Below are positions 4,006-32,588 of a DNA stretch of 50,317 nt, one piece after another. Made by a program: the position numbers and the translations under genes. Within the stretch, counting starts at the first letter, position 1. The number at the start of each line of letters is the position of its first letter. A model generated the notes under the pieces. It was not told the origin of the DNA and ran no database searches. It saw only the letters and a program-made list of their open reading frames with translations. Source of the stretch: Candidatus Methylopumilus sp. (lineage in GTDB: Bacteria > Pseudomonadota > Gammaproteobacteria > Burkholderiales > Burkholderiaceae_B); assembly GCA_021738045.1 (NCBI GenBank), contig JAIPCU010000005.1, forward strand, positions 1 through 50,317, read 5' to 3'.

Positions 4006-4007
4006 AC

Positions 4008-9145: not shown

Positions 9146-10885
9146 ATGACCGCCATCCCCTACTACAACACCCACGCCGCAGCACTCGCGCAACAATACG
9201 AGTCCCTCTCTGCCGCCTCAGTCCACAGTTGGCTAATCGACCTGCTCCCCAAAACCAAAACTCTGGCCTTAGACGTAGGCGCGGGCTCTGGACGCGACGC
9301 AGCGTGGTTAGCCAGCCTCGGTTTCGAAGTGATCGCCGTCGAACCCTCGGCAGGCATGCGGGCCGAGGCGCAGCGCTTGCATCGCTCGACGCAAATCCAA
9401 TGGCTAGACGATTCGTTACCTGATTTTCAAGTCACGCAGCGCTTAGGCCTAAGCTTCGATGTGATCCTACTCAGTGCAGTGTGGATGCACTTGCCGCCCG
9501 CAGAGCGCCCGCGTGCCTTTCGTAAGCTGATTGCCTTGCTAAAGCCTGGTGGGTTATTAGCGCTTACGCTACGCCTGGGGCCCGCCGCGCCCGAGCGCGC
9601 GATGTTTGAGGTGTCTGAGCACGAGATCGAAACGCTAGCTAAAAATCATGGCGCGTTCATTGAAAGGCGTGTGCTGTCTAGTGACCAAGGTGGGCGCACT
9701 GAGATTAGTTGGGTGCAATTGGCGCTTCGGCTGCCTGATGACGGCACCGGTGCCCTGCCCTTGTTGCGTCACATCATCTTCAATGACGACAAATCGTCTA
9801 CCTATAAGCTGGCGCTTCTGCGGGTGCTGTGCCGCATCGCCGACGGCACGGCCGGTTATGCCCGCGTGGTTGAGGGCGCGCCCAACTGGGTCGAGCTTCC
9901 GCTAGGGCTGGTGGCGCTGTTTTGGTTGCGGCAATATATGCCGCTGCTCAAGGCGGGGTTGCCGCAGCAACCTAACAATCGGGGGCTAGACGGCCTGGGG
10001 TTTGTCAAAGAGGCGTTCAGGGGCTTGGTTGCGCCGGCCTGTCATACCTCTGCGCTTGATCTGCGCGTGGGCATGCGCTTTGAGGGCGAGCGTGCGCAAC
10101 TGCTGCATCAGGCGTTGCGCGATGCCTGTAAAACGATTCAAGAAATGCCTGCGCGTTATTTGACTCACCCAGATGGCAGCAACATCTTGGCGGTCACGCG
10201 CCATGGTCGTGTGGCGGGGCCTCAGCATCTGCTGCTTGACGAGGCGTATCTGTCAAGCTTTGGGCACTTGCGCTTGCCGCAACATCTTTACACCGCCCTG
10301 CAACGTTTTGACGCGTGGATCGAACCAGCCTTGCTGGCTGAGTGGGCGCGGCTAATCAAAGGCTATGCGCGGCGCCAACACCGCACGGTTGACGAAAATA
10401 CCTTAGTGGCTGCGTTGGCCTGGTCAGACCCAGCACGCGACGTCGGTTTAGCGCGCGGGCAGGCGCTGCAACTGTTGGAAAGCGGTGGGTTGCAGTGTGT
10501 GTATAGCGGCAAGCGTTTAACTGCAAACACGCTCGACATCGATCACTGTTTGCCTTGGCACGCCTGGCCCTGTAGTGATTTGTGGAACCTGCTCCCCGCC
10601 TCGTCGCAACTCAACCGCCAAAAGAGCGACCGCGTACCCAGCGAGGTCATGCTCTCTGGCGCACAAACCCGCATCCAAGACTGGTGGGCGCAGGCGTATG
10701 ACGGGGTGCTGGGTGAAAGGTTTAGGCTTGAAGCGCAAGCAAGCTTGCCGCTGGTGGGTGGCGGTGCGGGGGTTGCAGAGGTGTATGCGGGGGTACGGGT
10801 GCAGAGGTTGCGGTTGCGGTTTGAAATAGCCAATACCGTTGTGAAAAGTCCCGCCGAACGGAGTTGGCTATTTGATTCACCATAA
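9146..10885 (+). CDS. Fusion of SAM-dependent methyltransferase and HNH endonuclease
   Basis: Residues 1-195 are a class I SAM-dependent methyltransferase: motif I LDVGAGSGRD at about 42-51, the acidic strand-2 end EVIAVEP at 61-67 and LLKPGGLLALTLR at about 131-143. Residues about 200-440 are an uncharacterised middle region. An HNH nuclease follows: CVYSGKRL at 451-458, LDIDHCLPWHAW at 463-474 with the catalytic His467, and LWNLLPASSQLNRQKSD at about 479-495. Modification and cleavage activities in one chain suggest a restriction-like or nucleic-acid processing role, but none has been shown to my knowledge. A damaged copy of the 3' part lies at 31884-32588. Confidence 0.85.
   Translation: MTAIPYYNTHAAALAQQYESLSAASVHSWLIDLLPKTKTLALDVGAGSGRDAAWLASLGFEVIAVEPSAGMRAEAQRLHRSTQIQWLDDSLPDFQVTQRLGLSFDVILLSAVWMHLPPAERPRAFRKLIALLKPGGLLALTLRLGPAAPERAMFEVSEHEIETLAKNHGAFIERRVLSSDQGGRTEISWVQLALRLPDDGTGALPLLRHIIFNDDKSSTYKLALLRVLCRIADGTAGYARVVEGAPNWVELPLGLVALFWLRQYMPLLKAGLPQQPNNRGLDGLGFVKEAFRGLVAPACHTSALDLRVGMRFEGERAQLLHQALRDACKTIQEMPARYLTHPDGSNILAVTRHGRVAGPQHLLLDEAYLSSFGHLRLPQHLYTALQRFDAWIEPALLAEWARLIKGYARRQHRTVDENTLVAALAWSDPARDVGLARGQALQLLESGGLQCVYSGKRLTANTLDIDHCLPWHAWPCSDLWNLLPASSQLNRQKSDRVPSEVMLSGAQTRIQDWWAQAYDGVLGERFRLEAQASLPLVGGGAGVAEVYAGVRVQRLRLRFEIANTVVKSPAERSWLFDSP
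9980..10803 (+). repeat. Direct repeat, intact copy (inside the methyltransferase-HNH gene)
   Basis: This stretch, encoding roughly residues 280-553 of the fusion protein, is repeated in the same orientation at 31884-32588. The two copies agree over long runs with scattered mainly silent changes. The second copy lacks 122 bases corresponding to 10504-10625. The two repeats bracket the whole catabolic island. Confidence 0.9.
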
Positions 10886-10898
10886 CCACCAGACTAGC

Positions 10899-11528
10899 TC
10901 ACTGATTTTTGAGCGCTTTAAAGTAGGCAACGACTTGTTTGGACGTCACCAAGTCCGCATACTTCTGCTCCATATCAAATAGATTGGCCCGATGAGGACC
11001 CTCTGCGCGATCCCCTACGCAGTCTGTCACTACCATCGGACGTAAGCCATAGGCTGACGCGTCAATCGTGCTCGCACGCACACAACCACTCGTGGTGCAG
11101 CCGGTAATAAATAAGGTATCGACGCCTACAAAAGTCAGCCACGCAGCCAAGTTAGTGCCAAAAAAAGCTGATCCGTGGCGTTTGGTTGAAACCCACTCAC
11201 CTTTCTTGGGCCGGACACTTTCGACAAACTGCGCGTCTTTCGAGTCAGGCGATAGTTTCTTAAGCGTTGGTACCTTGACCGCAAATGTACCAATGTCGTC
11301 GCCTTGCATTTCTGTTGCAAATCGCACGTGCGCGACGGGAACTTTCGAGCTTCGCGCGATCTTTAATAATTTTGAAGTTTGCTCAATCGCACTGAGCATA
11401 TTGAAACCGCCAAGCACATCGGCGTCGGCAAACCCTACTTGAAAATCGATAATTAACAATGCCGATTTTTTACCAAAACCAATTTTTTGACCAAATTTCT
11501 GCTTTTTGTAGACATCGAGATCTGCCAT
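10899..11528 (-). CDS. Isochorismatase-family cysteine hydrolase (maleamate / N-carbamoylsarcosine amidase type)
   Basis: The protein (209 aa) has the family's catalytic Asp (ALLIIDFQVGF), Lys (STKRHGSAFFGTNL) and nucleophilic Cys in GCTTSGCVRAS. The CTTSGCVRA context followed by VTDCVGDRAEGPHRANLFD is typical of N-carbamoylsarcosine amidase and maleamate amidohydrolase (NicF) relatives, which release ammonia from amides of small acids. The second of two adjacent ATGs was chosen because AGGAG lies six bases upstream. It is the last gene of a minus-strand set with the LeuC/LeuD-like pair and a Bug receptor, which fits release of an unsaturated dicarboxylate that the LeuCD-like enzyme then hydrates. 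The exact amide is unknown. Confidence 0.85.
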   Translation of the reverse strand: MADLDVYKKQKFGQKIGFGKKSALLIIDFQVGFADADVLGGFNMLSAIEQTSKLLKIARSSKVPVAHVRFATEMQGDDIGTFAVKVPTLKKLSPDSKDAQFVESVRPKKGEWVSTKRHGSAFFGTNLAAWLTFVGVDTLFITGCTTSGCVRASTIDASAYGLRPMVVTDCVGDRAEGPHRANLFDMEQKYADLVTSKQVVAYFKALKNQ

Positions 11529-11602
11529 CATGGGCTCCTAAAGTAGCATTGGGATTAAACCTGCCGCTCGCTTACACTAGCTATGCTCACAACACTCGGG
11601 AC

Positions 11603-12868
11603 TTACGCTAAATGGGTTCGAGGATCTGTGATAAATCCTGTCAGTGCGCTCGCCGCAACCGTTGCAGGTGAACCTAGATAAACCAAGGCATCACGATGTC
11701 CCATTCTGCCGAGAAAATTTCGGCTCGAAGATGAGATACATACTTCGCCCTCTGCCAAAACTCCCTGATGCATTCCAGCGCATGCGCCACAGCCTGGAGT
11801 GGTCACCGAAGCACCAGCGTTCACCAAAATTTCAAGCACCCCAGAAGTAAGCGCCTGCATGTAAACCTGCCTAGACGCTGGCGTGACGACAAGCCGGACG
11901 TCCGATGCGATTTTCTTACCTTTCAAAATGGATGCTGCAATCTCAAAATCTTCAAAGCGGCCATTCGTGCACGTTCCTATAAAAGCTTGATTAATGCGCA
12001 CAGAGCTAAAGTTGCCAACCGGATGTACGTTATCTACCTTGTTTGGTGCTGACACCAATGGCTCTAATGTCGATAAATCAACTTTGTGATGCGATACATA
12101 CTGCGCATCGACATCTGGCTGTGGCATTTCGGCAATCGTTATATTTAACCGATCGAAGTGCGCTTGGGTGACGGCATCGCCAGGAACCACGGCGAACTTT
12201 GCCCCCATCTCAATTCCCATATTGCAGAGCGTCATCCGCTCAGGAATACTCATGTGGGCAATGGCCTCGCCGTGATATTCAATTGCAGCATAGATCGCAC
12301 CTCTCGCGGAGATCGACTGAAGTATCGACAAAACAATATCTTTCGCAGCAACGCCTGCGGGCATGCGTCCCGTCAATTCGATCTTGATGCTTTCAGGAAC
12401 TCTAAACCACAACTTACCTTCAGACCAGAGGTAGGCCATCTCAGCCCCGCCGATACCGCAACCAATCGCACCAACTGCGCCTACGGTAATGGTGTGTGAA
12501 TCCATATTTGTGACCATCTTACCCGGATGAACCAAGCCACTTTCGACTGCAATTTGATGCGAGATTCCAGCGCCGACCTCGTGTAAATGTTCCCGAGGAA
12601 TCCCGAACTGATCAAACAGCTTTCTACCAATTCTATGCATCAAGGCATGTAATGGGGTATCTGCCGGAGCGTAGTGATCGTAGAACAGCCGGATCTTCTC
12701 TGGATGAGCCAGTTTTTTTACGCCATAACGCTTAAAGTTTTGATCAATCAATCCAATGCCATCATCTAATGCAAACGTCCAATCGGGGCCAATCTCAACC
12801 ATATCACCCGCTTTTACCGTCCGCCCCGCGAGGCGACCCATAATTTTTTCGGTTAGCGTTTGACTCAT
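11603..12868 (-). CDS. LeuC-type hydro-lyase large subunit (aconitase superfamily), locus 1
   Basis: This is the large subunit of a two-subunit [4Fe-4S] hydro-lyase. The three cluster cysteines are visible in FIGTCTNGRFEDF (Cys300) and TPGCGACAGM (Cys360, Cys363), with NMDSHTITVGAVGAIGCGIG near 121-140. Relatives act on isopropylmalate, citraconate, maleate (HbzI-type) or dimethylmaleate. Leucine synthesis is unlikely because no leuA or leuB is near and the neighbours are catabolic. A maleate or citraconate hydratase role is inferred. The ATG at 12868 has GAGGTG upstream and overlaps the LeuD-like stop by 4 bases. Confidence 0.88.
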   Translation of the reverse strand: MSQTLTEKIMGRLAGRTVKAGDMVEIGPDWTFALDDGIGLIDQNFKRYGVKKLAHPEKIRLFYDHYAPADTPLHALMHRIGRKLFDQFGIPREHLHEVGAGISHQIAVESGLVHPGKMVTNMDSHTITVGAVGAIGCGIGGAEMAYLWSEGKLWFRVPESIKIELTGRMPAGVAAKDIVLSILQSISARGAIYAAIEYHGEAIAHMSIPERMTLCNMGIEMGAKFAVVPGDAVTQAHFDRLNITIAEMPQPDVDAQYVSHHKVDLSTLEPLVSAPNKVDNVHPVGNFSSVRINQAFIGTCTNGRFEDFEIAASILKGKKIASDVRLVVTPASRQVYMQALTSGVLEILVNAGASVTTPGCGACAGMHQGVLAEGEVCISSSSRNFLGRMGHRDALVYLGSPATVAASALTGFITDPRTHLA

Positions 12869-13365
12869 GTCTTCACCTCTTTGTTGCTTTGGGCTAATTT
12901 TGCAGCCCACAGTCCGCCCGCGCTCAGAATCGTAAGCACCTCGGGTGGAAGCGGCGTAAAAGAAAGTACTTTGCCATTAATCGATGCTTGCCCAGTTTGC
13001 AGATCAGCAAAAATCTTGTCTCCCTCAGTGATCGCAGACACAATTTCCGGGCTAATGACTACTGCCAAGCCATTGTTTACTGCATTTCTAAAAAAAATGC
13101 GTGAGAAAGATTTTGCAAGCACAAGGCGCACATTCGCACCGATCATAGACGTTACCGCATGCTCGCGAGACGAGCCGCAACCAAAATTCCAACCTCCTAT
13201 GACGACACCTCCAGCAAGAACTTTTTGTCGTACAGCCTCGCCTAGCGGTTCGAACAAATGTTTAGCTTGATCCTCAGGCTTTAAAACGGCGAGGTATCGC
13301 GCCGGAAAAATAACGTCTGTGTCAATGTCGTCACCCAATACCGCAGCAAATCCCTCAACTTGCAT
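12865..13365 (-). CDS. LeuD-type hydro-lyase small subunit, locus 1
   Basis: The small swivelling subunit (166 aa) pairs with the LeuC-type protein encoded immediately downstream. The hallmark segments are present: LGDDIDTDVIFPARYL at the N-terminus, then WNFGCGSSREHAV with the substrate-binding Ser-Ser-Arg, then SFSRIFFRNAVNNGL. Substrate choice in this superfamily depends on a flexible loop after the IDTDVI strand and cannot be read with certainty. The ATG at 13365 has AAGG at good spacing; a GTG at 13392 is the alternative. The order receptor-LeuD-LeuC-hydrolase indicates one catabolic operon. Confidence 0.87.
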   Translation of the reverse strand: MQVEGFAAVLGDDIDTDVIFPARYLAVLKPEDQAKHLFEPLGEAVRQKVLAGGVVIGGWNFGCGSSREHAVTSMIGANVRLVLAKSFSRIFFRNAVNNGLAVVISPEIVSAITEGDKIFADLQTGQASINGKVLSFTPLPPEVLTILSAGGLWAAKLAQSNKEVKT

Positions 13366-13429
13366 ACATATCCTTTGATCAACTATGGGCACAAGATATT
13401 TAGCTCAACCCAGTTTTAGTCACACAGAC

Positions 13430-14413
13430 TTACGGGGCAATTGTGATTCCGCTACTTCTAATGAAGTTAGTCCACACTGGAATATCTTTATTAATGAAGT
13501 CAGTAAGCTCAGCCGCATTCATCAGCATTGGCTCGATCTCCATTTTTCGTAGCCGGTCAGTTATCTCGGGCGAGGCGACCGCTTTTTGCGCAGCGTCACT
13601 TAGCTTCTTGATCACGGCTTCAGGCGTACCGGCAGGTGCAGCCAAACACCACCACGCTAAAACCTGGAAGCTAGGGAAACCGCTCTCAGCGACTGTTGGG
13701 ACGTCAGGAAGCGCACCAAGCCGAGTCGGGCCTGTCACAGCTAGCGCTCTCAGCTTGCCAGCTTGAATGAGTGGCAATGCCGCCGATGGAGAATCCGTAG
13801 CAAACAATACCTGTCCGGCGGCTACATCTACAATTACCTGACCACTGCCTTTGTATGGAATATGTGTCGCGGACACTGATGCTTTGTGTAAGAGCATTTC
13901 TGTCGCAAGGTGGGTAATTGTTCCAACTCCGGCCGAGGCAAAACTGCTTGGCTCTTTCTTTAATCGATCAAGTAATTCACCTAGGGTTTGAGGCGAGCCT
14001 GGTCTAGTTGACGTGAAAATTACATAATCAGATTTTGCCAGGCCTGAAATAAATGCAAAATCTTTTTTGACATCGTATTTTGCATTTGGGTTTAAAACTG
14101 GTGTCGTTCCGAGCGATGAAGTCGTGCCCATCGTTAAGGTATACCCATCTGGCTTTGCACGAGCAACATACTCCGTACCAATGACCCCTCCACCACCCAA
14201 TCGATTTTCGACAGTCACGGGTGTCCCAAGTATTTCTCTCATCTTTTCTGAGAGAATTCTCGCGATCGTATCGCTACCGGTGCCGGGCCCAAAAGCGACA
14301 ACTAGATTGATCGGCCGGTTCGGAAATGTTGGGTCCGCGTTAGCAGAAAACATCACTATGCATGCGGCAAAACTAGCGCAGATATTTATTAGGTACTTTC
14401 GCAAAAAAGACAT
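13430..14413 (-). CDS. Bug/TctC-family periplasmic solute-binding receptor 1
   Basis: This is a tripartite-tricarboxylate-type extracytoplasmic receptor (327 aa) with a signal peptide at residues 1-26 (MSFLRKYLINICASFAAC... ending ANA). Family motifs follow: PNRPINLVVAFGPGTGSDTIAR, VENRLGGGGVIGTEYVARAKPDG, THIPYKGSGQVIVDVAAGQV and LPDVPTVAES. Bug proteins bind carboxylates, amides or aromatic acids in the periplasm. No TctA/TctB membrane genes are nearby, so it is an orphan receptor as is common in Burkholderiales. GGAG sits six bases before the ATG. It is the first gene of the minus-strand set and diverges from the CoA-transferase operon across a 207-base intergenic region. Confidence 0.92.
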   Translation of the reverse strand: MSFLRKYLINICASFAACIVMFSANADPTFPNRPINLVVAFGPGTGSDTIARILSEKMREILGTPVTVENRLGGGGVIGTEYVARAKPDGYTLTMGTTSSLGTTPVLNPNAKYDVKKDFAFISGLAKSDYVIFTSTRPGSPQTLGELLDRLKKEPSSFASAGVGTITHLATEMLLHKASVSATHIPYKGSGQVIVDVAAGQVLFATDSPSAALPLIQAGKLRALAVTGPTRLGALPDVPTVAESGFPSFQVLAWWCLAAPAGTPEAVIKKLSDAAQKAVASPEITDRLRKMEIEPMLMNAAELTDFINKDIPVWTNFIRSSGITIAP

Positions 14414-14559
14414 ATCAACTCCCTCGTTGTTGATTCACAAGCTAGAACCAAGCTCCACCCTTTGATTGTGACTGTGATAACCGGCACGCTCGGGTTTCGC
14501 ACATTAGTGACTCTGTTGCTGGTTAGATCGAGCGACTGTGCTTTATTAGTATCTAAAAC

Positions 14560-14588
14560 TTGACAGTCAAACTAAACCTAACTATTGT
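14560..14588 (+). promoter_or_regulatory. Sigma-70-type promoter of the CoA-transferase/lyase operon
   Basis: TTGACA at 14560-14565 matches the -35 consensus exactly. It is separated by 17 bases from TATTGT at 14583-14588, which serves as a -10 box. Transcription would start near 14595, just before the GAGG at 14607-14610. The palindrome at 14585-14596 overlaps the -10 box, so a bound repressor would block RNA polymerase. Confidence 0.65.
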
Positions 14589-14596
14589 CCGTACAA
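14585..14596. promoter_or_regulatory. Candidate GntR operator 1 (TTGTCCGTACAA)
   Basis: TTGT and ACAA form an inverted repeat around CCGT (five-base arms if the flanking A/T is counted). The same 12 bases plus the following TTA recur at 20377-20391, upstream of the minus-strand amidase and next to the GntR/UTRA gene. The TTGT-N4-ACAA layout resembles operators of HutC-type GntR regulators. Binding has not been shown. Confidence 0.6.
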
Positions 14597-14620
14597 TTAG
14601 ATTAACGAGGTATGCAAAAA

Positions 14621-15871
14621 ATGTCAACGGCCGAAAAGTCAACGCATGGGGCGCTTTCAGATGTCAAAGTGCTAGACCTCTCAAACTTCCTCGCAGCACC
14701 GATGTGCGCCATGTTTATGGCAGACTTTGGTGCGCAAGTCATAAAAATTGAAAAGCCGGGCTCCGGTGACGAGATGCGGTTTTGGGGCGAAAACAAAGAC
14801 GGCGTTGGGCTTTATTACAAGGTCATCAATCGAGGTAAAAAGTCCGTCACGCTTGATCTGCGAACCCCCTTTGGGGTTGAAGTCGTGAAAAAATTAGTAC
14901 TGGACACGGATATCGTGATCGAGAATTACCGAACGGGGACACTTGAAAAGTGGGGACTCGGGTACGAAACACTCAAAGCGATCAATCCAAGCCTCATTAT
15001 GATTCGCGTAACCGGTTATGGACAAACAGGGCCTTACAGCGATCGTCCTGGCTTCGGAACGCTAGCCGAAGCCTATGCTGGTGCCGCCTTTATTTCCGGC
15101 TACCCGGATCAAGCTCCACTGCTTCCAGGGTTTGGGTTGGCAGACTCGACGACGGGTCTTATGGCGGCATATCTTGGGCTTGTTGCGATGGCCGAAAAGC
15201 GACGCACAGGGAAAGGTCAATATATTGATCTGGCCATTTATGAAACCCTGTTAACGCTGATCGGGCCAAACGTCATTAATTATGATCAGCTCGGCATTAT
15301 TCAGCAACGCAGCGGCAGCAGACTCTCATTTACCGCCCCCCGCAACACGTATCGAACGCGTGACGAACGTTGGGTAACGATTGGTGGCAGCGCGCAGTCC
15401 GCGTTCACAAGTATTTGTAAAACGCTTGGAATTGCCGAAATTATTGAAGATCCTCGGTTTTTAAATAATCGGCTAAGGATAAAAAATGTTGAGGCACTCG
15501 ACCAAGCAATTCAATCCGCAGTTGAGCAATTTGATCTAACCGATTTATTAGCGCAAGCGGCCAAAAATAATTCTACGATGTCTCCAGTGAATGACGTCGA
15601 ACAAATTTTTGCTGATCCGCATATTCAAGCAAGACAAAACATTACTCAGCTTTTTGATTCCGAACTCAAGTCGAATGTTCGCATGCAAGGTGTCGTAGGA
15701 AAGCTTTCCGAATCGCCTGGACATATCCGTCATCCAGGCCCAAGACTCGGTGCAGATAATCACGCCGTCTTAGTCGAGCAACTGGGCTATTCGCTTACCC
15801 AACTCGCACACGAGGGTATCGACACCGATCACACAATCAATGATCCAAAAGGTACAGATGCAATTTCCTGA
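14621..15871 (+). CDS. Class III (CaiB/BaiF) CoA-transferase 1
   Basis: Family III CoA-transferases move CoA from a donor such as succinyl-CoA to a carboxylic acid through an aspartyl-CoA intermediate. The product (416 aa) contains VLDLSNFLAAPMC near the start, ENYRTGTLEKWGLGYE, VTGYGQTGPYSDRPGFGTL and the catalytic Asp175 in FGLADSTTG. ATG 14621 is ten bases from GAGG; ATG 14612 is only one base away and is less likely. It leads an operon with an HMG-CoA-lyase-like gene that overlaps its 3' end. A citramalate CoA-transferase (Sct-like) role is inferred from that pairing, not proven. Confidence 0.9.
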   Translation: MSTAEKSTHGALSDVKVLDLSNFLAAPMCAMFMADFGAQVIKIEKPGSGDEMRFWGENKDGVGLYYKVINRGKKSVTLDLRTPFGVEVVKKLVLDTDIVIENYRTGTLEKWGLGYETLKAINPSLIMIRVTGYGQTGPYSDRPGFGTLAEAYAGAAFISGYPDQAPLLPGFGLADSTTGLMAAYLGLVAMAEKRRTGKGQYIDLAIYETLLTLIGPNVINYDQLGIIQQRSGSRLSFTAPRNTYRTRDERWVTIGGSAQSAFTSICKTLGIAEIIEDPRFLNNRLRIKNVEALDQAIQSAVEQFDLTDLLAQAAKNNSTMSPVNDVEQIFADPHIQARQNITQLFDSELKSNVRMQGVVGKLSESPGHIRHPGPRLGADNHAVLVEQLGYSLTQLAHEGIDTDHTINDPKGTDAIS

Positions 15872-16811
15872 AAAAATAACCGTAATTGATGTCTCTGCAC
15901 GTGATGGCCTACAGAGCTTTAAGCGCTGGGTATCCACTGAAGACAAAGTTAAGATGATTGATATTTTGACCGAGACCGGATTTCCAGTCATCGAAGTCGC
16001 CGGTTTTGCGCATCCTCGCGTGATTCCCAATCTTCGTGATGCTGAAGAAGTGTGCGAACGTATTAAGCGCAAACCAGGCACTGTCTATCGGGGGCTTGCG
16101 CCTAATGCGCGAGGTGCCACACGTGCTGTCGCTGCGGGTGTTAACGAGGTTGTCGGGCTAGCCATTGCAAGCGATACTTACCTCAAAAAAAATCAGAATA
16201 TGAGCGCCGAGCAAGCAAACGACCAAGCGATCGAAGCCTTTAGAATTGCTGAAACAGCAGGCTGTAGCTATGTCATTGCCATAGGCATGTCTTTTTGGTG
16301 TCCGTACGAAGGCCTGATTGCCAAGCAGCGCGTCATCGATATGGTGAAGAAGTTTCGAAATGCGGGCATACAGAAAATGTACTTGGCGGGCTCAGTCGGG
16401 ATGGAAGATCCGCGACATGTCAACGCTCTCTTCTCGATGCTGCGCGATCAGTTTCCTGATATCGAGTTCGGTTTTCACATTCATAACTTGTCAGGAATGG
16501 CAACAGCAAATATCCTTGCCGCACTTGATGGCGGCGCTGCATTTTTAGAAGGCGCTATCTGTGGCATTGGTGGTGGCATCGCCATGCCCGAATCGCTCGG
16601 CTCGGTGGGAAATTACCCCGCTGAAGACTTAGTGCGTATGCTAGAGCTTCTTCAGATAAAAACTGGCTTGAATATCGAAACCGTGACTCAAGCCTCAAAA
16701 AAGATTGCTGCTTTACTTGATATCTCTCCAAGAAGTCATTCCGCCCTTGATTGCACGCGCGAAGCGGTCATGCAATGGGGCAAAGACCATCCACGCGAGC
16801 ATCCCGCCTAA
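15858..16811 (+). CDS. HMG-CoA-lyase-like acyl-CoA lyase, candidate (R)-citramalyl-CoA lyase
   Basis: This TIM-barrel lyase (317 aa) carries ITVIDVSARDGLQSF with the catalytic Arg-Asp, the metal-binding HIHNLSGMATAN motif and the GAICGIGGG loop with the mobile active-site Cys of the HMG-CoA lyase family. Such enzymes cleave 3-hydroxy-3-methyl acyl-CoAs. In Chloroflexus, an HMG-CoA-lyase homologue encoded with a class III CoA-transferase is (R)-citramalyl-CoA lyase, giving acetyl-CoA and pyruvate. The same pairing here suggests that reaction. The start at 15858 follows AAGG at six bases and overlaps the upstream gene by 14 bases. Confidence 0.88.
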   Translation: MQFPEKITVIDVSARDGLQSFKRWVSTEDKVKMIDILTETGFPVIEVAGFAHPRVIPNLRDAEEVCERIKRKPGTVYRGLAPNARGATRAVAAGVNEVVGLAIASDTYLKKNQNMSAEQANDQAIEAFRIAETAGCSYVIAIGMSFWCPYEGLIAKQRVIDMVKKFRNAGIQKMYLAGSVGMEDPRHVNALFSMLRDQFPDIEFGFHIHNLSGMATANILAALDGGAAFLEGAICGIGGGIAMPESLGSVGNYPAEDLVRMLELLQIKTGLNIETVTQASKKIAALLDISPRSHSALDCTREAVMQWGKDHPREHPA

Positions 16812-16853
16812 AAACTGGTTGTCCTCGCTAACCAAATTGATTCGGAGTATTTT

Positions 16854-24145: not shown

Positions 24146-24209
24146 GTGTCGTATTTATTGTGAGTGTCGTATTTATTGTGAGTGTCGTATTTATTGTGAG
24201 TGTCGTATT
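24141..24209 (+). repeat. 18-base tandem repeat, nearly four copies
   Basis: TGTGAGTGTCGTATTTAT occurs at 24141-24158, 24159-24176 and 24177-24194, with a partial fourth copy at 24195-24209. The first unit contains the DctM stop codon, and each later unit repeats it in frame because 18 is a multiple of three. It fills most of the gap to the next gene. Short identical units like this arise by replication slippage; no regulatory role is evident. Confidence 0.95.
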
Positions 24210-24244
24210 AATCAAATTTTGTAACCTTTGCATGAGGAATCATC

Positions 24245-24892: not shown

Positions 24893-25331
24893 CGCTTCAC
24901 TCACCATCCGTCGTGATTGGGCACGTGTCGATCTAGCGGGAATTCCTGCGTTGATGCAAGCATCGGGCAGTCAGATCAGCGATGTCATCGCTGGGGCTGC
25001 TACGCTCGATCTGAGCTTACGTCGAATAAAACTGAATTTGCCCGTGTTTGCCCTGGGCACCTCTGCGCGCGCACCGAGTAAACATGGTCCGGGCACGGTG
25101 GGCGTCTCAGTGACGCTTTCAACCACGACGATCCAAGCGGGTGATTTTATTATGGTCGATGAGGATGGTGTCTCGACGATACCGAGCACAAATATCCACA
25201 ACATTGAGCCGAGGCTTGAGGCACTCTTTACGCGGGATCGTTTGATACAAGATCGTGTGGCGTCAGGCGCAACGAAGCCACCAAACTTTGAGAACCTATT
25301 AAGTCAAGCCGGCGTGCATTGGATCGCATGA
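24885..25331 (+). pseudogene. RraA-family protein with large internal deletion
   Basis: The C-terminal half matches the RraA / 4-hydroxy-4-methyl-2-oxoglutarate aldolase-like family: LPVFALGTSARAPSKHGPG, VSVTLSTTTIQAGDFIMVDE and DGVSTIPS. The N-terminus (IPALMQASGSQISDVIAG) also fits. The family is normally about 200-230 residues; this product has 148. The middle section that holds the substrate-binding Gly-rich loop and the metal-site Asp appears to be missing in frame, between ISDVIAG and AATLDLSLRRI. The frame itself is intact and coupled to both neighbours (overlaps of 8 and 4 bases), so a shortened protein is probably still made, but aldolase activity is doubtful. Confidence 0.65.
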
Positions 25332-26737
25332 AAAAGAAAACGTCTGCCTCTTCCAAAGATTTATGGAAAATTACGCTAGCTGAGGCGTCCGCTCGTATAC
25401 AAGCGGCTAGTTTGTCGCCTGTCGAGTTGCTTGAAGCCTATCTTGATCGCATCGCTGAAGTAGACAGCAAGATTCACTCTTATATTTGTGTTGCGGCCGA
25501 ACCAGCACGCAATGCTGCAAAACGTGCCGAAAGTGAACTGCGAAATGGAATTTGGAAGGGTCCACTTCATGGGATTCCGTTCGCAGTAAAAGATAATTAC
25601 GACGTAGCCGGATTGCCTGCGACGGCCGGCTCTCGGTTGCGCTTAGGGCACATACCGGAGGTTGATGCACCGCTTGTCGCTGACCTTAAAGCCGCAGGCG
25701 CGGTGTTGATTGGTAAGTTGGCGACGTGGGAGTTCGGGACAGGCAACGGGGGCGAATACTTCGATCTACCTTTTCCGCCCGCACGCAACCCTTGGGATGT
25801 AGAAAGATTTACGGGTGGCTCGTCGACTGGCGCAGGCGCCGGGGTCGCTGCAGGCACAACTCTTTTTGCGCTGGGTTCCGACACAACCGGCTCGGTGCGA
25901 CTGCCGGCCGCTGCCTGTGGCGCAGTGGGGATGATCACCACGCCCGGACGTCTCTCAACCCAAGGAATTCTTCCGAACTGCTGGTCTCTTGACACGCCCG
26001 GCCCCTTCGCCTGGACGGTTCAAGACTGCGCGATAATTCTTGATACCTTGCTGGGGCCGCCCGCAGCAAACGCTTTGCCTCAACGCTCGTTGTCACGTAG
26101 CGTGGGCATGCCGATTTCAGGTTTACGGATTGCCGTCGTTGACGATCCGGGTCCCGGCTTTCCACAAGCAGACCGACCGTTACAAGACGGGCTCCACAAA
26201 GCACTAGAGGTTCTTGAAAAGCTTGGCGCACGCCTCACGTACGTCAAGCTTCCCATTCCAGCGGCAGAATGCTTTGCGGCATCCCGAATGATCGGACCCG
26301 CAGAAAGTGCCGCGATCCATGAGGATGAACTCAAACATCATGCTGATCAGATGGGGTTTGCCTTACGAGATAAGCTCTTGGCCGGCTCGCTCGTCCGAGC
26401 AGTGGACTATCTCGCAGCACAGCGCTTAAGACGAGCAATCGCAACGAGTCTGGACACGCTGCTACGCGGCTACGACGCCTTAGTAACCTTTGGCACCTTA
26501 CATTTACCGCCAAAACTAGGTGTTGAGCCCGAGATGACAGCCTTCACTGTCGAGACGATGCTGACCCCTTTTAATCTCTCTGGACACCCCGCCTTAGTGC
26601 AATGCAATGGCTTCGCAAAAGGCTTGCCTCTCAATTGGCAAATCATTGGTAATCGCGGTGATGAAGCAACGATTCTACAAATCGCTGGTGCCTATGAGGC
26701 TGCAACCCCATGGCGCAATCGGAGGCCAACACTATGA
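25328..26737 (+). CDS. Amidase signature family enzyme 2
   Basis: The product (469 aa) has the catalytic Lys in GIPFAVKDNYD, the Gly/Ser-rich signature FTGGSSTGAGAGVAAGT and the nucleophile region ALGSDTTGSVRLPAAACG. It resembles allophanate-hydrolase-like and AtzF/AtzE-like amidases in general layout, but the substrate cannot be assigned. The ATG overlaps the stop of the RraA-like gene (ATGA), so the TTG three codons upstream was not used. The next gene also starts in an ATGA overlap. The run RraA-like, amidase and small protein is therefore one translationally coupled unit. Confidence 0.9.
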   Translation: MKKKTSASSKDLWKITLAEASARIQAASLSPVELLEAYLDRIAEVDSKIHSYICVAAEPARNAAKRAESELRNGIWKGPLHGIPFAVKDNYDVAGLPATAGSRLRLGHIPEVDAPLVADLKAAGAVLIGKLATWEFGTGNGGEYFDLPFPPARNPWDVERFTGGSSTGAGAGVAAGTTLFALGSDTTGSVRLPAAACGAVGMITTPGRLSTQGILPNCWSLDTPGPFAWTVQDCAIILDTLLGPPAANALPQRSLSRSVGMPISGLRIAVVDDPGPGFPQADRPLQDGLHKALEVLEKLGARLTYVKLPIPAAECFAASRMIGPAESAAIHEDELKHHADQMGFALRDKLLAGSLVRAVDYLAAQRLRRAIATSLDTLLRGYDALVTFGTLHLPPKLGVEPEMTAFTVETMLTPFNLSGHPALVQCNGFAKGLPLNWQIIGNRGDEATILQIAGAYEAATPWRNRRPTL

Positions 26738-26952
26738 GCAAAAAACGTCCGGCTAAGACCGCTTCTGGCGAACAACCAAATACTGTCCACTCTTTTGCAG
26801 CGCTGCACGGACTGTCAGAACTAAAGTCTGTTTATTTAAAACGCATGGAGGAGTTGTCTGTGCCGGTCGCAACGTTTGGTCAGCAAGTTAGGCGTCTGTC
26901 CAACAAAGAGGACGGTCCCGCACCCGTCTTTGTTGTGATGACTCGCACCTAG
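26734..26952 (+). CDS. Small hypothetical protein (72 aa) coupled to amidase 2
   Basis: I do not recognise the family. The product is a basic N-terminal tail (MSKKRPAKTASGEQ) followed by a short helical region (FAALHGLSELKSVYLKRMEELSV). Its start lies in an ATGA overlap with the amidase stop. Some amidases, such as AtzE, work with a small GatC-like partner (AtzG), and the position would suit such a role. I see no convincing GatC/AtzG motif, so this is only a guess. Confidence 0.5.
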   Translation: MSKKRPAKTASGEQPNTVHSFAALHGLSELKSVYLKRMEELSVPVATFGQQVRRLSNKEDGPAPVFVVMTRT

Positions 26953-26968
26953 GACACTTGAGCGAAAC

Positions 26969-27211
26969 ATGAAAACACTCATCATCGAAGTGCGCGTGAA
27001 CGAATACGCGATGCGCGACGAGAACCCAAATGTGCCTTGGACAGCCGCAGAAATCGGTCGAGAAGCGATCGGCATCGGCGATTATGCGTATCTTGAATTG
27101 GGCTATCCAACAAATGCAGAGCTAGTGCGTGAAATTGTCAAGCTTGCGAAGGTCATCGGCCGTGATGTTGCAACGCCCGAGCAGGCGCGACAAATGCTAG
27201 GTGTCGACTAA
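26969..27211 (+). pseudogene. BKACE-family (DUF849) beta-keto acid cleavage enzyme with large internal deletion
   Basis: BKACE enzymes condense beta-keto acids with acetyl-CoA and split them; they are normally about 270-310 residues. This frame has 80. Its N-terminal 33 residues (MKTLIIEVRVNEYAMRDENP, VPWTAAEIGREA) match the family's first strand and helix. The remainder (GIGDYAYLELGYPTNAELVR, ELGR-like region, ATPEQARQMLG) matches the last segment. The barrel between them, including all catalytic residues, is missing without a frameshift. A functional enzyme is very unlikely. It lies between amidase genes 2 and 3 in the same operon. Confidence 0.7.
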
Positions 27212-27242
27212 TCCACAGTAGAAACATACATAGGTGAATTCC

Positions 27243-28589
27243 ATGCAAACACAAACGCTCAGTGCCACCGCTGCAACCACGACCGCGCTGGAAAACATCA
27301 CGAAATACAACCCGACGATTAACGCGATGATCACCGTCCTCGCTGATCAAGCACTCGCGCGTGCAGCGCAACTCGACGCCTTACCTGCCCAAGCCCGAGG
27401 CCCTCTGCATGGCATGGTAGTTAATCTAAAAGATAATATCGATTTAGCCGGAAGCGTAACGACCGCCGCCTCCATTATCCTGAAAGATAATGTCGCGCAG
27501 CACAACGCCTTTATCACCGACCGCCTCCTTGATGCAGGGGCTGTCATCATTGGTAAGTCCAACTTACACGAATGGGTGTTTGGACCGACCAGTCAAAGCA
27601 AACATTTTGGACCAGTCAAAAACCCGTGGGATCCTTCACGCATCCCAGGCGGTTCGAGTGGCGGTTCGGGAGCCTCTGTCGCAGCCGAAATGTGTACCGT
27701 GTCAATTGGCAGCGACACGGCAGGGTCGATCCGAATCCCCTCCGCGTTTAACGGACTAGCCGGTTTACGGCCTTCTGTGGGCAGAATATCTTGCGCGGGT
27801 AGTGTCGGGGTCAGCCCTCCTTTCGACGTTCTTGGCCCTCTAGGGAAATCCGTCTCGGATGTCGCTCGCGTTTTTCAGGTGATTGCGGGCTATGACCCCT
27901 CAGATCCCATGTCCATCGACCGTCCCGTACCAGATGCGTTGAGCAAGTTGAATGACAGCGTTCGCGGTAAGCGCATTGGCTTCATGCGCCGTTGGTACTT
28001 TGACCATATATCTACAGAATTACAAGCCGCGATTGACAATGCGCTAGACGTTTATAAAAGCCTGGGGGTCGAGATCGTTGAGGTGGACCTAGGAGATGTT
28101 GATCGCGCACAAGAGATGTTAGGGTTTCGGTTAATTTTGGCTGACGCTTTCGAGAAGCATCGAGAACAACTCGCTCAACGACCCAACGATTATGGCGAAG
28201 ACATCCAAATGCGACTTGCCATCGGAGGTCGCTTAAGCGGCCCAGATTACGCCCAAGCACTGCGCTGGACCGAGGCTTGGCGACACCGTCTTTCTGGCTT
28301 GTTCACCCAAGTTGACGCGATGTTGTGTCCCACGACGCCCATACTGCCGCCTTTAAGAGCGGACTTAGAGTTTGCCCAAGCGATTCGCGCGATTCCGAAA
28401 TTTACTTGCGTCTATGCGGCCGCTGGCGTTCCAAGTCTTGCGCTTCCATGCGGGTTCTCGGCGCAAGGCCTGCCGTTGTCCATGGAGCTCGCGGGCCCTG
28501 CCTTTGGTGAAGCCGCAATATTGCAGTTGGGTCATGCTTTTCAGAAAGTCACCGCGTATCACTTGCAACGACCTGCGCTTCTTTCCTAA
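27243..28589 (+). CDS. Amidase signature family enzyme 3
   Basis: This third amidase (448 aa) shows the catalytic Lys in GMVVNLKDNID, the cis-Ser in RIPGGSSGGSGASVAAE and the nucleophile in SIGSDTAGSIRIPSAFNG. It is closer in length and layout to amidase 1 than to amidase 2. AGGTGA lies five to six bases before the ATG at 27243; the GTG at 27234 is less well placed. Three amidases and two cysteine hydrolases in one island point to stepwise removal of several amide groups, or to several related substrates. Confidence 0.9.
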   Translation: MQTQTLSATAATTTALENITKYNPTINAMITVLADQALARAAQLDALPAQARGPLHGMVVNLKDNIDLAGSVTTAASIILKDNVAQHNAFITDRLLDAGAVIIGKSNLHEWVFGPTSQSKHFGPVKNPWDPSRIPGGSSGGSGASVAAEMCTVSIGSDTAGSIRIPSAFNGLAGLRPSVGRISCAGSVGVSPPFDVLGPLGKSVSDVARVFQVIAGYDPSDPMSIDRPVPDALSKLNDSVRGKRIGFMRRWYFDHISTELQAAIDNALDVYKSLGVEIVEVDLGDVDRAQEMLGFRLILADAFEKHREQLAQRPNDYGEDIQMRLAIGGRLSGPDYAQALRWTEAWRHRLSGLFTQVDAMLCPTTPILPPLRADLEFAQAIRAIPKFTCVYAAAGVPSLALPCGFSAQGLPLSMELAGPAFGEAAILQLGHAFQKVTAYHLQRPALLS

Positions 28590-28637
28590 TCTTTACCTTA
28601 AAAAAATTTATTAGTAAGTTTTAAGTAAAAATTGACC

Positions 28638-28666
28638 TTGACCAACGATTGATTTTTGCATTAGAT
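28638..28666 (+). promoter_or_regulatory. Possible promoter of TRAP transporter 2
   Basis: TTGACC at 28638-28643 is 17 bases before TTAGAT at 28661-28666, a plausible -35/-10 pair in the AT-rich gap after amidase 3. The motif TTGACC occurs twice in a row (also 28632-28637). This is inferred from sequence only. Confidence 0.4.
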
Positions 28667-28711
28667 TAATTCCGTTCCAAGATAATTCCTATAACTTTGG
28701 AGAACCAAACC

Positions 28712-29797
28712 ATGAGACCTGCTTCCCTAATTCAATCCATCTTGCTTACCGCCGGTCTATCGATCGCTGCGTTCAGTGTTTCAGCCCAACCAACAATGAA
28801 GTTAAAGGTGGCCTCGAACTATCCAGCCACCTCCCTCTTTAGCAAAGTACAGCAACACTATTTCGACGAAGTCACGAAGCGCACAAACGGTCGTGTAACG
28901 TTTGAATACTACTATGGTGGCGTGCTACTCAAAGCATCCGACGTGTATCCAGGGTTAAGCCGTGGTGCAGTGGATATCGGCTTTACGGTACCTGCAGCCT
29001 TTAATCCTCGCGAGTATCCCCTAGCAGGCGTTACGCTGCCCTTTGTCACCGAAAATGTGCAAGCCGCAAGCTATGCGTTTCGCGATTGGTACAACACCAC
29101 ACCTGAGGTTCAAAAAGAATTTCAGCGTAATAATGTTCACGTTCTCCTGACAATCCCGGCAGCAGAAAATGTATTGTGGAGCATGAAAAAGGTCACTACA
29201 GCCGCAGACCTTAAAGGTATGCGTATTCGCACCTTGCTCGGACCTGCCGATGCCCTGGTAGCTCTTGGCGCAACAGCGGTGACCGTTCCCTACACTGACG
29301 CGATTGATTTGCTAACGCGCGGTGGAGTCGATGCCATTTCCACGACACCTTTCGAGCAAGGCGTCAAAGATGGACTCCCTGAAATGGTTAACTATCTGTC
29401 ACCTGCCGCGCGCATGGGAATCTTTGCCACAGTCATCACTTCAATCAATCTGGATAAGTGGAAGGCGATGCCTAAAGATCTCCAGGAGATATTTACAAGT
29501 TCAGCCAATAACGCTTTGAAGTTTTATGCCACTGAGCAAGGCAAAGAAGTAGATGAGTCTGTCGAAATATTGCTCAAGGCTAAAAAAGTTCAAGTCGTCC
29601 CGATGGATGCCGCCGAGGAAAAAAGATGGCGTGAAGAGACAAACGACGTGATCGTAAAAAAATACAATGCTCAAGTCGCACGCGTTGGTGGAGATGGCAC
29701 AGCATTGTTAGCCTCGTACACAGCTTTGGTCCGCAAATATGAAAAAGAATACCCCTACGTCACGGGTATCGATCGTTTCGTGGCGCGTAAAAAATGA
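28712..29797 (+). CDS. TRAP transporter 2, DctP-type periplasmic substrate-binding subunit
   Basis: The protein (361 aa) has a signal peptide (MRPASLIQSILLTAGLSIAA, cleaved after VSAQ) and DctP segments KVQQHYFDEVTKRTNGRVTF, ADLKGMRIRTLLGPADALV and GATAVTVPYTDAIDLLTRGG followed by VDAISTTPFEQG. The ATG at 28712 is preceded by GGAG at nine bases; a TTG at 28697 is unlikely. The stop overlaps the DctQ start by 4 bases. It is only distantly related to the receptor at 21238-22248, so the two TRAP systems probably have different ligands. Confidence 0.9.
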   Translation: MRPASLIQSILLTAGLSIAAFSVSAQPTMKLKVASNYPATSLFSKVQQHYFDEVTKRTNGRVTFEYYYGGVLLKASDVYPGLSRGAVDIGFTVPAAFNPREYPLAGVTLPFVTENVQAASYAFRDWYNTTPEVQKEFQRNNVHVLLTIPAAENVLWSMKKVTTAADLKGMRIRTLLGPADALVALGATAVTVPYTDAIDLLTRGGVDAISTTPFEQGVKDGLPEMVNYLSPAARMGIFATVITSINLDKWKAMPKDLQEIFTSSANNALKFYATEQGKEVDESVEILLKAKKVQVVPMDAAEEKRWREETNDVIVKKYNAQVARVGGDGTALLASYTALVRKYEKEYPYVTGIDRFVARKK

Positions 29798-30357
29798 GCT
29801 TAAGAAACGCCTGTCAGAAGTTAATTACGACCTCTCGGTCGGTCGCGTCGGCTATGGCTGGTGTGACTGGTTTTTTGACGATCGTCATGATACTCGGGGT
29901 TGTGGTCGATGCCTCCCTGAGGGGAACGGCAGGGATCGCAGTCTGGGGGGTGCTTGAGCTATGCACCCTTCTACTGCTTGCAATGATTTATTTTGGCTTG
30001 CCGTCGACGCAGAGCGAACGAGAGAACTTTCGTGTCTCGATCGTTACAGACTTAATGCCGATGAAAGTCAATTTATTCATCAGTGGCATCTTGTTGTTGC
30101 TACAAATAGTAATCTTGGGTTTGCTGTGTTGGTTCACATGGCGTGCTGCAATATTTTCGTTTAACCGCGACGAGGTTTCAATTGGTTTGGTTGAAATTTC
30201 ATTGTGGCCACATCGTTTCATGATCGCCATGGGTCTTACGGTGCTCACGTTCCAAAGCGTAGTATCTGGCCTCGATCTGTTGCTAAATGGAAAACATCCA
30301 TTCGCTCCAGACCAAGCTATCGAACTTGCACAAACCGTCAGGCAGCAAACATTATGA
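29794..30357 (+). CDS. TRAP transporter 2, DctQ-type small membrane subunit
   Basis: This 187-residue protein has four hydrophobic segments (for example MAGVTGFLTIVMILGVVVDA and LFISGILLLLQIVILGLLCW). The usual DctQ order holds, with the LGLPSTQSERENFRVSIVTD-like linker between helices 2 and 3. Both ends overlap its neighbours by ATGA, as in the first TRAP system. Confidence 0.85.
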   Translation: MSLRNACQKLITTSRSVASAMAGVTGFLTIVMILGVVVDASLRGTAGIAVWGVLELCTLLLLAMIYFGLPSTQSERENFRVSIVTDLMPMKVNLFISGILLLLQIVILGLLCWFTWRAAIFSFNRDEVSIGLVEISLWPHRFMIAMGLTVLTFQSVVSGLDLLLNGKHPFAPDQAIELAQTVRQQTL

Positions 30358-31649
30358 GTCCTGCAGAACACGGGTTTTGGTTAGTGAGTGGGCTATTTTT
30401 TTTGTTGGCACTGGGTTTGCCGATTGCTGCGTCTTTACTCACTTGTGGGCTGCTTGGCATTTTGGCAGTGCAAGGATGGGGCGCAGCCGACTATTTGCTG
30501 GGCACGCTGCCCTATTCAGTATCGGCAGAGTTTGCCTTTATTGTGATCCCACTGTTTCTGTTTATGGGGCACATGGCATTTTCAGCTGGGATTTCTGAAA
30601 AGGGCTTTCGCGCAGCAACCGTTTGGTTGGGACATATTCCAGGCGGTCTAGCTATCTCTGCGATTGTGGCCTGTGCAGCCTTTGCGACGGTCTCAGGGTC
30701 TTCCATCGCAACCGCCGCGACGATTTCAAGAGTGGCCATTCCGGAACTCTTAAAAGCGGGTTATTCAAAATCGCTTGCGGGCGCTTGCGTAGCAACGGGT
30801 GGCACCTTAGGGGTACTAATCCCTCCGTCTACCATTATGGTGCTGTACTCCATCGCAACCGAAACCCCAATACCTGAATTATTTATGGCGGGGATTATCC
30901 CTGGCATTTTGACGGTACTGATCTACGGTCTGGGCATTTACGTGATGGTTAAGCGTGATCCCAAAATGAGCAGCATCACAGTACACCCGCGCAGCGGATT
31001 TAAAGAGCGCATGCGCGCCACCTTTATGTCGTGGGAGATTCTTCTACTATTCGGCATCGTGATGGGTACGCTCTATACAGGGATGGCAACGGCCACCGAG
31101 GCGGCTGGTTTTGGTGCGCTCGCAGCGTTGTTAATTGCGATTTCACGCGGAACAAGTTGGAAAGAGATTAAAGAAGGGCTGCGGACCTCCGGCTCAAGCA
31201 CCGCGACAATATTCTTTCTGATCATAGGTGCAGGCGTATTTAGCGCGGCTCTGGCCACTACACAAATACCTCAAAGCCTGTCTGCTTGGGTCGGTACCTT
31301 AAATTTACATCCCACAATCTTACTCATTTGCTTATTGGTTCCCTTTTTGATTTTGGGGTGTTTTGTTGATGCTGCTTCGATGGTGTTACTGACGATGCCA
31401 GTTGTTTTCCCAATCGTGAAGCAAGCGGGGATCGATCCTGTTTTGTTCGGGATTCTGGTCGTGAAAATGACTGAGATCGGAAACATCACCCCACCGGTAG
31501 GACTGAATGTATTTGTGGTGGCAACCACGAATCCTGTTCTGACGATTCGAGAAATTTTCAAAGGCATCACACCTTTTTTCTTTATGGAACTATTGGTTGT
31601 TGCGCTTCTAATCGCTTTCCCGAGCATTACTCTCATTGCTGTTCGATAG
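30354..31649 (+). CDS. TRAP transporter 2, DctM-type large permease subunit
   Basis: The product (431 aa) is a DctM permease with FIVIPLFLFMGHMAFSAGIS, FATVSGSSIATAATISRVAI, GGTLGVLIPPSTIMVLYSIA and MTEIGNITPPVGLNVFVVAT. The ATG at 30354 overlaps the DctQ stop by 4 bases, so the longer frame from 30204 is not used. It is the last intact gene of the catabolic island; the next gene is a truncated DUF1330 reading frame. Confidence 0.92.
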   Translation: MSPAEHGFWLVSGLFFLLALGLPIAASLLTCGLLGILAVQGWGAADYLLGTLPYSVSAEFAFIVIPLFLFMGHMAFSAGISEKGFRAATVWLGHIPGGLAISAIVACAAFATVSGSSIATAATISRVAIPELLKAGYSKSLAGACVATGGTLGVLIPPSTIMVLYSIATETPIPELFMAGIIPGILTVLIYGLGIYVMVKRDPKMSSITVHPRSGFKERMRATFMSWEILLLFGIVMGTLYTGMATATEAAGFGALAALLIAISRGTSWKEIKEGLRTSGSSTATIFFLIIGAGVFSAALATTQIPQSLSAWVGTLNLHPTILLICLLVPFLILGCFVDAASMVLLTMPVVFPIVKQAGIDPVLFGILVVKMTEIGNITPPVGLNVFVVATTNPVLTIREIFKGITPFFFMELLVVALLIAFPSITLIAVR

Positions 31650-31676
31650 ACTGTGTGTCATTTGTAGGAGGCCTGT

Positions 31677-31823
31677 GTGGCAAAAGCGTATTTGATGGGG
31701 CATATCACCGTCACGAATCTTGAGGGGTACAAAAAATATTCACAGGTTGTTTCGGCACCCCTGACCGCACCAATAACTACGCAATTTCCGTTGGCACGCT
31801 TGCTTGACCCACTTGCAGGTTAG
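31677..31823 (+). pseudogene. Truncated DUF1330-family gene at the island edge
   Basis: A perfect AGGAGG at 31666-31671 is followed by GTG at 31677. The first about 25 codons (VAKAYLMGHITVTNLEGYKK, then YSQVV) match the N-terminus of DUF1330 proteins, which are ferredoxin-like-fold proteins of about 95 residues. Similarity then stops, and the frame runs through unrelated sequence to TAG at 31821. The gene was therefore cut near 31750 by a rearrangement. It sits directly between TRAP transporter 2 and the damaged direct repeat. Confidence 0.65.
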
Positions 31824-31883
31824 GTTATCGCTGGTAACGATCACCTGCGCATACTGACCGGTTACTCTCGTGTAATTTAAAGA

Positions 31884-32588
31884 GAGGGGGCTAGTCTGCT
31901 TGGAGTTTGTCAAAGACGCGTTCAGGGGCTTGGTTGCACCTACCTGTCATACCTCTGCGCTTGATCTGCGCGTAGGCATGCGCTTTGAGGGCGAGCGTGC
32001 GCAACCTCTGCATCAGGCGCTGCGCGATGCCTGTAAAACAATCCAAGAAATGCCTGCGCGGTATCTGACGCACCCAGATGGCAGCAACATCCTGGCGGTC
32101 ACGCGCCATGGACGTGTGGCTGGGCCTAAGCATCTGCTTCTTGACGAGGCGTATCTATCGAGCTTTGGGCACTTGCGCTTGCCGCAACATCTTTACACCG
32201 CCCTGCAACGTTTTGACGCGTGGATCGAACCGGCCTTGCTGGCTGAGTGGGCGCGGCTGATCAAAGGCTATGCGCTGCGCCAGCACCGTGCGGTTGACGA
32301 AAACACCTTAGTAGCTGCGCTGGCCTGGTCAGACCCCGCACGCGACGTCACCCTTGCTCGTGGGCAGGCGCTGCAACTGCTGCAAGACGGTGGGTTGCAG
32401 TGTGTGTAGCGACCGCGTACCCAGCGAGGTCATGCTCTCCGGCGCGCAAAACCGCATCCAAGACTGGTGGGCGCAGGCGTATGACGGGGTGCTGGGTGAA
32501 AGATTTAGGCTTGAAGCGCAAGCAAGCTTGCCGCTGGTGGGTGGCGGTGCGGGGGTTGAAGAGGTGTATGCGGATGTACGGGTGCGAT
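31884..32588 (+). pseudogene. Damaged partial copy of the methyltransferase-HNH gene (direct repeat, second copy)
   Basis: The sequence from about GGGGGCTAG at 31886 to GTACGGGTGCG at 32588 aligns in the same orientation with 9980-10803. The methyltransferase half is absent. A 122-base deletion, equal to 10504-10625 of the intact gene, removes the HNH catalytic core and shifts the frame. The joint is visible as GTGTGTA joined to GCGACCGCG at 32406-32408, followed by a stop. The remaining codons are well conserved, so the copy is fairly recent or was lately homogenised with the intact gene. It cannot give an active nuclease. Confidence 0.9.

Follow-up and report, generated by a model that had tools for sequence, protein, structure and literature searches.

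Direct repeats around catabolic genes in a Candidatus Methylopumilus contig as two diverged alleles of a methyltransferase-HNH gene

The 50,317-base contig C128 of Candidatus Methylopumilus sp. (JAIPCU010000005.1), taken whole and referred to here as the window, carries a set of catabolic genes bracketed by two copies of one methyltransferase-HNH gene, of which the left is long and the right is a truncated remnant. Comparison of the two copies with each other and with the alleles of other genomes suggests that they are separately inherited alleles and unlikely to be a duplicate made at the arrival of the catabolic island. The site is probably a busy spot of gene exchange, not a purpose-built excisable island. 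The source assembly comprises 218 contigs and is 82.3% complete.

Two diverged copies of one gene

The preliminary description of this DNA had placed a direct repeat at 9980-10803 and 31884-32588. BLASTN recovers this repeat as a real one, with the earlier ends correct within 3 nucleotides (nt), and the Pfam content of the DNA in between agrees with the view that direct repeats bracket catabolic genes. The match consists of two same-strand blocks, A (478 of 523 positions identical, 91.4%, E 0.0) and B (171 of 178, 96.1%, E 2e-81), and chance is excluded as its source. The left copy (copy 1) encodes a solitary methyltransferase-HNH protein in a single chain, with an N-terminal S-adenosylmethionine (SAM) methyltransferase at residues 42-136 and a C-terminal HNH_4 domain at residues 451-498 (Pfam); PADLOC matches to this gene cover the methyltransferase or the HNH part alone. 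The last ~25 nt of its relatives' gene are absent, and the reading frame continues into downstream sequence. The right copy (copy 2) starts 835 nt into the gene, lacks the 121 nt between blocks A and B that hold the HNH core (10504-10624 of copy 1), and ends 22 nt before the point where copy 1 ceases to match other alleles. Because the methyltransferase-bearing first 835 nt and the HNH core are both missing, copy 2 is, on the reading of its sequence, a relic, as the preliminary description had also seen in calling it defective. The copies have 60-61% G+C (vs. 49.7% for the window), and no further copy of the gene beyond these two was found in the 82.3% complete assembly.

Alleles for comparison come from related genomes and from a GTDB scan, which yielded five loci: L034 (labelled Comamonadaceae), L035 and L038 (both genome G027), L036 (G030) and the more distant L037, the organism labels being unchecked record titles. 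The two copies are identical at 649 of 701 positions (92.6%), against 90.9-95.7% over all allele pairs; copy 1 is 94.8% identical to the G030 allele and 95.2% to G027A, and copy 2, which of all alleles stands farthest from the rest (90.9-93.9%), is 93.9% identical to G027D. Synonymous divergence (dS) between the copies is 0.222, with a nonsynonymous to synonymous ratio (dN/dS) of 0.16, and other allele pairs have dS values of 0.11-0.30. Fifteen synonymous and eight nonsynonymous changes are private to copy 2, from which it seems that most of its divergence predates its loss of function. A tree of seven alleles, built without the short G027B fragment, is star-like, with none of its four inner branches supported. 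As the copies are as distant as alleles of different genomes and their divergence is mostly synonymous, a duplication made at insertion is unlikely. We rejected it on the divergence, the allele tree and the synonymous excess, and the earlier idea that the repeats mark the insertion of the island is not supported. Copy 1 looks mosaic in the allele comparison, and around 9819-9987 it has identical runs of 152 nt in common with L034 and of 169 nt with G027A. An unusual conservation of this stretch was also considered and vanishes with all alleles included (a run as long as the longest one turns up in 2630 of 5000 shuffles).

The catabolic cluster and its flanks in related genomes

The DNA at 10.9-31.65 kilobases (kb) is, by its Pfam content, one coherent catabolic island, as claimed earlier; its part at 11602-31757 has aconitase-like, TctC, HMGL-like, HpcH-like, RraA-like, isochorismatase and GntR genes, two CoA-transferases, three amidases and two TRAP transporters. 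The island nevertheless unites blocks that lie apart from each other in several relatives. The cluster proper (~11.6-31.76 kb) is found in seven of the 31 other genomes of the genus (G005, G006, G010, G015, G024, G025 and G031), although in G005 and G010 it is confined to positions beyond ~24.2 kb, and a number of the contigs are short. This count omits G020, where 149 nt of the cluster start match at the edge of a contig, as well as weaker or shorter hits in other genomes, mostly at 65-75%. The shared flanks of the cluster in G005, G010, G015, G025 and G031 represent one locus. A DNA match to the methyltransferase-HNH gene, counted at E <= 1e-20, occurs in three of the 31 genomes (G012, G027 and G030), and there is no overlap with the cluster carriers: the longest cluster match in these three is 771 nt at 69%, and none has a comparable cluster. 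The pattern that the preliminary description had named as speaking against its own model, catabolic genes without the second repeat or the repeat without the island, is largely what the genus presents, with no gene match at this threshold in any of the seven cluster carriers and, in G030, a gene copy close to the right flank where the island is absent.

The isochorismatase block lies on a contig separate from the cluster in G015, G020, G025 and G031. It is found near the cluster in G006, with 2.3 kb between them (identity to the window is 95% for the block and 72-87% for the cluster), and this pairing has no methyltransferase-HNH match. The 100 kb around the G006 island contain no repeat of at least 150 nt above 67% identity, which argues that the composition of the island is independent of the repeats. 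The G024 contig begins at the isochorismatase start codon and continues into the cluster. As a control, the other 29 sequences were searched for repeats: pairs of at least 90% identity occur in G004, G021 and G027, those of G027 being methyltransferase-HNH copies.

A relative in which the gene is followed by the sequence found after 32588, as had been proposed for checking, exists in part. On contig C109 of G030 a near-full-length gene (5110-6803) and a helix-turn-helix-like (HTH-like) open reading frame (ORF) precede the counterpart of the right flank, which thus lies ~0.4 kb from the gene with the island absent; the upstream gene set differs, though, and this is no clean empty site. In none of the genus contigs compared are the left and the right flank joined, G030 having the gene plus the right flank only. 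On G024 contig C307 the leader of an HTH-like ORF lies left of the right flank, followed by the contig end, and this leader before the flank, as in G030, shows that the window lost the HTH-like ORF at 32585/32597. This join and those at 10824/10827, ~31771-31788 and 31885/31886 are without homology, and the right end of the island, to judge from its remnants (Table 1), is ragged. Gene turnover at the same locus is evident between the window and G030, which differ left of the shared right flank. The neighbours of the gene also differ in G027 and L034, and G006 is reordered.

Table 1. Coordinates of features in the window
Feature	Position	Strand	Basis and remarks
Copy 1, methyltransferase-HNH gene	9146-10885	+	579 amino acids; Pfam Methyltransf_25 1e-14, HNH_4 5e-7
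Homology of copy 1 to other alleles	9146-10824	+	Final codons replaced by downstream sequence
Repeat block A, copy 1	9981-10503	+	BLASTN
Repeat block B, copy 1	10625-10802	+	BLASTN
Repeat block A, copy 2 (relic)	31886-32408	+	BLASTN
Repeat block B, copy 2 (relic)	32408-32585	+	BLASTN
Left flank, defence-like genes	2509-9059	mixed	Pfam, PHROG, Ptu B-like models
McrB-like AAA (left flank)	2509-4005	+	Pfam
McrC-like (left flank)	4008-5429	+	Pfam
MazG-like (left flank)	5558-5944	+	Pfam
Schlafen-group-3 helicase (left flank)	5976-7841	+	Pfam
HNH protein (left flank)	7932-9059	-	PHROG 338 E 5.8e-14; Ptu B-like models
Isochorismatase gene and flanks	10827-11601	-	Pfam; 95% to G006:C29 71278-72052
Catabolic cluster	11602-31757	.	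Pfam content; locus common to relatives
Truncated gene	31677-31771	+	96-codon counterpart in G005; divergence after ~26-30 codons
Degenerate terminase-like fragment	31788-31886	-	Internal stop; 87% over 99 nt to start of G030:C71 ORF, which matches terminase PHROGs
Right flank	32597-34189	.	96% to G030:C109 7203-8793

Origin of the arrangement

The account that we favour, with some reserve, is recurrent acquisition of alleles in a hypervariable defence/accessory hotspot combined with ordinary recombination. The solitary methyltransferase-HNH gene would spread horizontally as diverged alleles, two of which would have arrived independently, copy 1 on the left with the McrBC/Schlafen/HNH defence group and copy 2 on the right. 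The DNA between them would be put together from catabolic blocks that also occur in other members of the genus, quite likely joined by homologous plus illegitimate recombination, and the right end of the island, or a later deletion, may have cut copy 2. The account starts from what is observed directly, namely the two alleles, their divergence, the locus that the cluster shares among relatives and the ragged joins. Recombination of copy 1 with copy 2 could possibly delete the island, which would not make the pair a dedicated excision device; a divergence of 4-9% would make such recombination rare.

Several points weigh against this account. The same orientation of the copies, the intact 5' end of the left one and the retained 3' part of the right one would be the outcome of a single crossover with a circle, and their pairing may not be accidental. 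Part of the divergence of copy 2, which has the longest branch, may have followed its truncation. Many of the genomes are fragmented drafts, which makes absences soft; the cluster carrier G024 has, besides short contigs, a relic tail of the gene family (77 nt at 79%) on the separate contig C307, G020 has the contig-edge match mentioned above, and in none of the genomes does the left flank adjoin informative sequence.

A Campbell-type single crossover between the resident gene and a circular molecule, on which the island would be linked to an internal piece (~9981-10824) of another allele, is in our estimate rather unlikely, even though it would neatly explain a left copy that is 5'-complete and cut at 10824, a right copy that is cut at 9981 and leads into the post-gene flank of G030, and copies differing as donor and resident alleles would. 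The partial gene copies between other ORFs in G027 would fit it as well. The allele swap that it predicts, however, is not seen: to the left of ~10500 the allele nearest to copy 1 is G027A (tied with G030 over the first half), but G027A agrees with the right part of copy 2 at only 91.5%, the allele classes are too mixed for a decision, and neither a circle nor a donor was seen.

It is also conceivable, albeit doubtful, that the methyltransferase-HNH ORF moves bare as a portable homology arm, so that incoming DNA with any allele would recombine with the resident allele and cargo would gather between copies that later decay. The limits of the shared sequence point this way. In all three copies with a preserved 5' end (window copy 1, L034 and G030) homology starts exactly at the ATG. 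At the other end L034, G030 and one G027 copy match up to the stop codon, and a second G027 copy differs there by a few bases; the match ends at or next to the stop in these four of the six copies with a visible 3' end, the window copies falling ~25 and ~47 nt short. Little similarity is found outside: in the 200 nt upstream 3/3 pairs score under the shuffle 95% level, and downstream 8/10 pairs are at or below this level, with two slightly above it and under the shuffle maximum (the L034 stretch in this test being only 55 nt). The cargo so gathered would be of any kind, defence-like cassettes in G027 and catabolic genes in the window; that G027 is a second genome with several copies favours the same idea. 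If true, it would make a solitary nuclease gene a new homology anchor, and defence hotspots would gather cargo without integrases.

An assembly mis-join, i.e., a chimeric contig formed inside a gene with long identical allele stretches, appears distinctly improbable. The runs of 152 nt (L034) and 169 nt (G027A) in copy 1 and its mosaic look, the window being a whole contig of a fragmented and incomplete assembly, and the lack of a genus match at 2.3-7.9 kb (other parts of the left flank do match the genus) would all fit such an artefact; between the two copies, however, the longest identical run is 71 nt, homology runs out at the joins 10824/10827 and 31885/31886 instead of spanning them, and the island, the right flank and some of the left flank all have matches in the same genus. 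The preliminary model, in which insertion of the island made the repeats and the repeats let it excise, is highly improbable, as the direct orientation and identical runs of 71 (the longest), 55 and 51 nt, enough for RecA in principle, are set against a divergence that, by its age and its excess of synonymous changes, does not fit a duplication at insertion, a cluster without a close gene copy in seven genomes, a gene without a comparable cluster in three and the failure to see an empty site or a circle, and the nuclease-driven insertion route raised with it is unsupported.

Known systems, spread of the gene and neighbouring features

Exchange hotspots without integrases are described as diversifying through homologous recombination (Oliveira et al. 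2017, PMC5635113). The present site is alike in high gene turnover, in accessory and defence genes, in homologous recombination as a likely route and in having no recognised integrase or transposase among the ORFs scanned, and unlike in that the recombining flanks there are core genes, whereas the repeated sequence here is an accessory gene inside the hotspot. The Pfam scan covered 41 of the 58 window ORFs of at least 120 amino acids and gave no integrase or transposase match, in keeping with the earlier impression that none is visible; the window has no tRNA or tmRNA (ARAGORN), no inverted repeats of at least 40 nt and no Rfam match at gathering scores. Integrative islands and integrative and conjugative elements also carry catabolic cargo between direct repeats. 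Their att sites are usually short identical repeats, unlike the diverged gene copies seen here, and no integrase or tRNA site was found in the window by the above scans. Composite transposons likewise hold cargo between two copies of a longer element; here, instead of insertion sequences with transposases, the ends are methyltransferase-HNH genes, which match no transposase and did not arise by recent duplication. A convincing look of an excisable island (long direct repeats, coherent cargo) can stem from repeated acquisition of one accessory gene, and a comparison of repeat divergence with allele divergence tells the two cases apart. Among the titles and abstract beginnings available from the literature, none was found to describe this arrangement.

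DNA matches to the gene at E <= 1e-20 are present in four of 268 genomes in a family draw (G000, G027, G030 and G012, own genome included), and matches in five of 399 in an order-wide draw (own included), the other four at only 64-79% identity. The G012 match is a 125-nt piece at 81%, more distant protein-level matches in the genus include stand-alone methyltransferases in G005, G014 and G021, and E. coli genomes gave no DNA match. The frame of L034 is open to the stop, and that of the G030 copy is interrupted twice, close to codon 14 and close to residue 485, either really or by assembly error. Two contigs of G027 hold four copies between them, of which one is long, two are partial (one of these running off the contig) and one is internally deleted. 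The protein matches 53 plasmid records, nine of them over at least 80% of its length; solitary class I SAM-dependent methyltransferase-HNH proteins of Roseomonas, Azospirillum and Sphingobium plasmids are full-length matches at 48-56% identity. Their neighbours are varied, as here, with McrC ~1.7 kb away in one record (H4), and records H6 and H7 each have two places matching the protein. Neighbours of the gene elsewhere are Druantia-like and UvrD-like helicases in L034, a PDC-S36-like gene in L036 and an AbiL-like pair in L038. The neighbours are defence-like, and a defence role is a candidate function.

Other candidate explanations and data were discarded. A viral origin was dropped after an IMG/VR pattern scan returned two stretches, neither a relative, and phage records gave one match, confined to the methyltransferase part. 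An origin from a split gene was also dropped, the HNH gene at 7932-9059 being not clearly homologous to the fusion (best E 0.058). A structure prediction had a mean predicted local distance difference test score (pLDDT) of 37.6 and was not used.

Several further observations concern the gene and its surroundings. Alleles are alike from the ATG to (or near) the stop, with little or nothing beyond, at 9146 and 10824 of the window, L034 10001-11704, L040 5111-6828 and L038 up to 782; this sharing spans several contexts and records labelled as different families. The G027 copies in L035 (1-7410) and L038 (1-3809) have the same orientation, with other ORFs between or beside them, among these the AbiL-like pair of L038 and, by eye, an ATPase-like ORF of L035. 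Tails of the gene family, 79% identical, occur in G024 (L043 3705-3781) and G009 (L042 4772-4852), each followed by a leader resembling, by eye, the one preceding an AbiL-like gene of L038, and could be older relics in a similar setting. A relative of the left-flank HNH gene (64-67% at the DNA level) lies divergent from a stand-alone methyltransferase in G005 and G021, with HNH-to-methyltransferase gaps of 44-86 nt there and in the window by mechanical ORF starts; such divergent pairs are at 7932-9146 of the window, L045 8697-10408 and L044 8636-10333, the window having the fusion where G005 and G021 have the methyltransferase alone. The strongest predicted hairpin of the gene, at 9903-9974 (z -3.5, the lowest of 80 windows), adjoins two breakpoints, 9971 in G027 and 9981 in copy 2. 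A general association of hairpins with eight breakpoints was rejected: 7/530 shifts were suggestive in one test and 81/530 were not in another, both tests having been chosen after data inspection, and the hairpin is kept as a lead only. To the right of copy 2 the first two ORFs have no Pfam match, and a helix-turn-helix gene lies at 35206-35607. Further on, a second catabolic block (36461-45303; transketolase, TctC, aconitase-like, PEP-mutase-like) has pieces with matches of 82-97% in eight or more further genomes of the genus.

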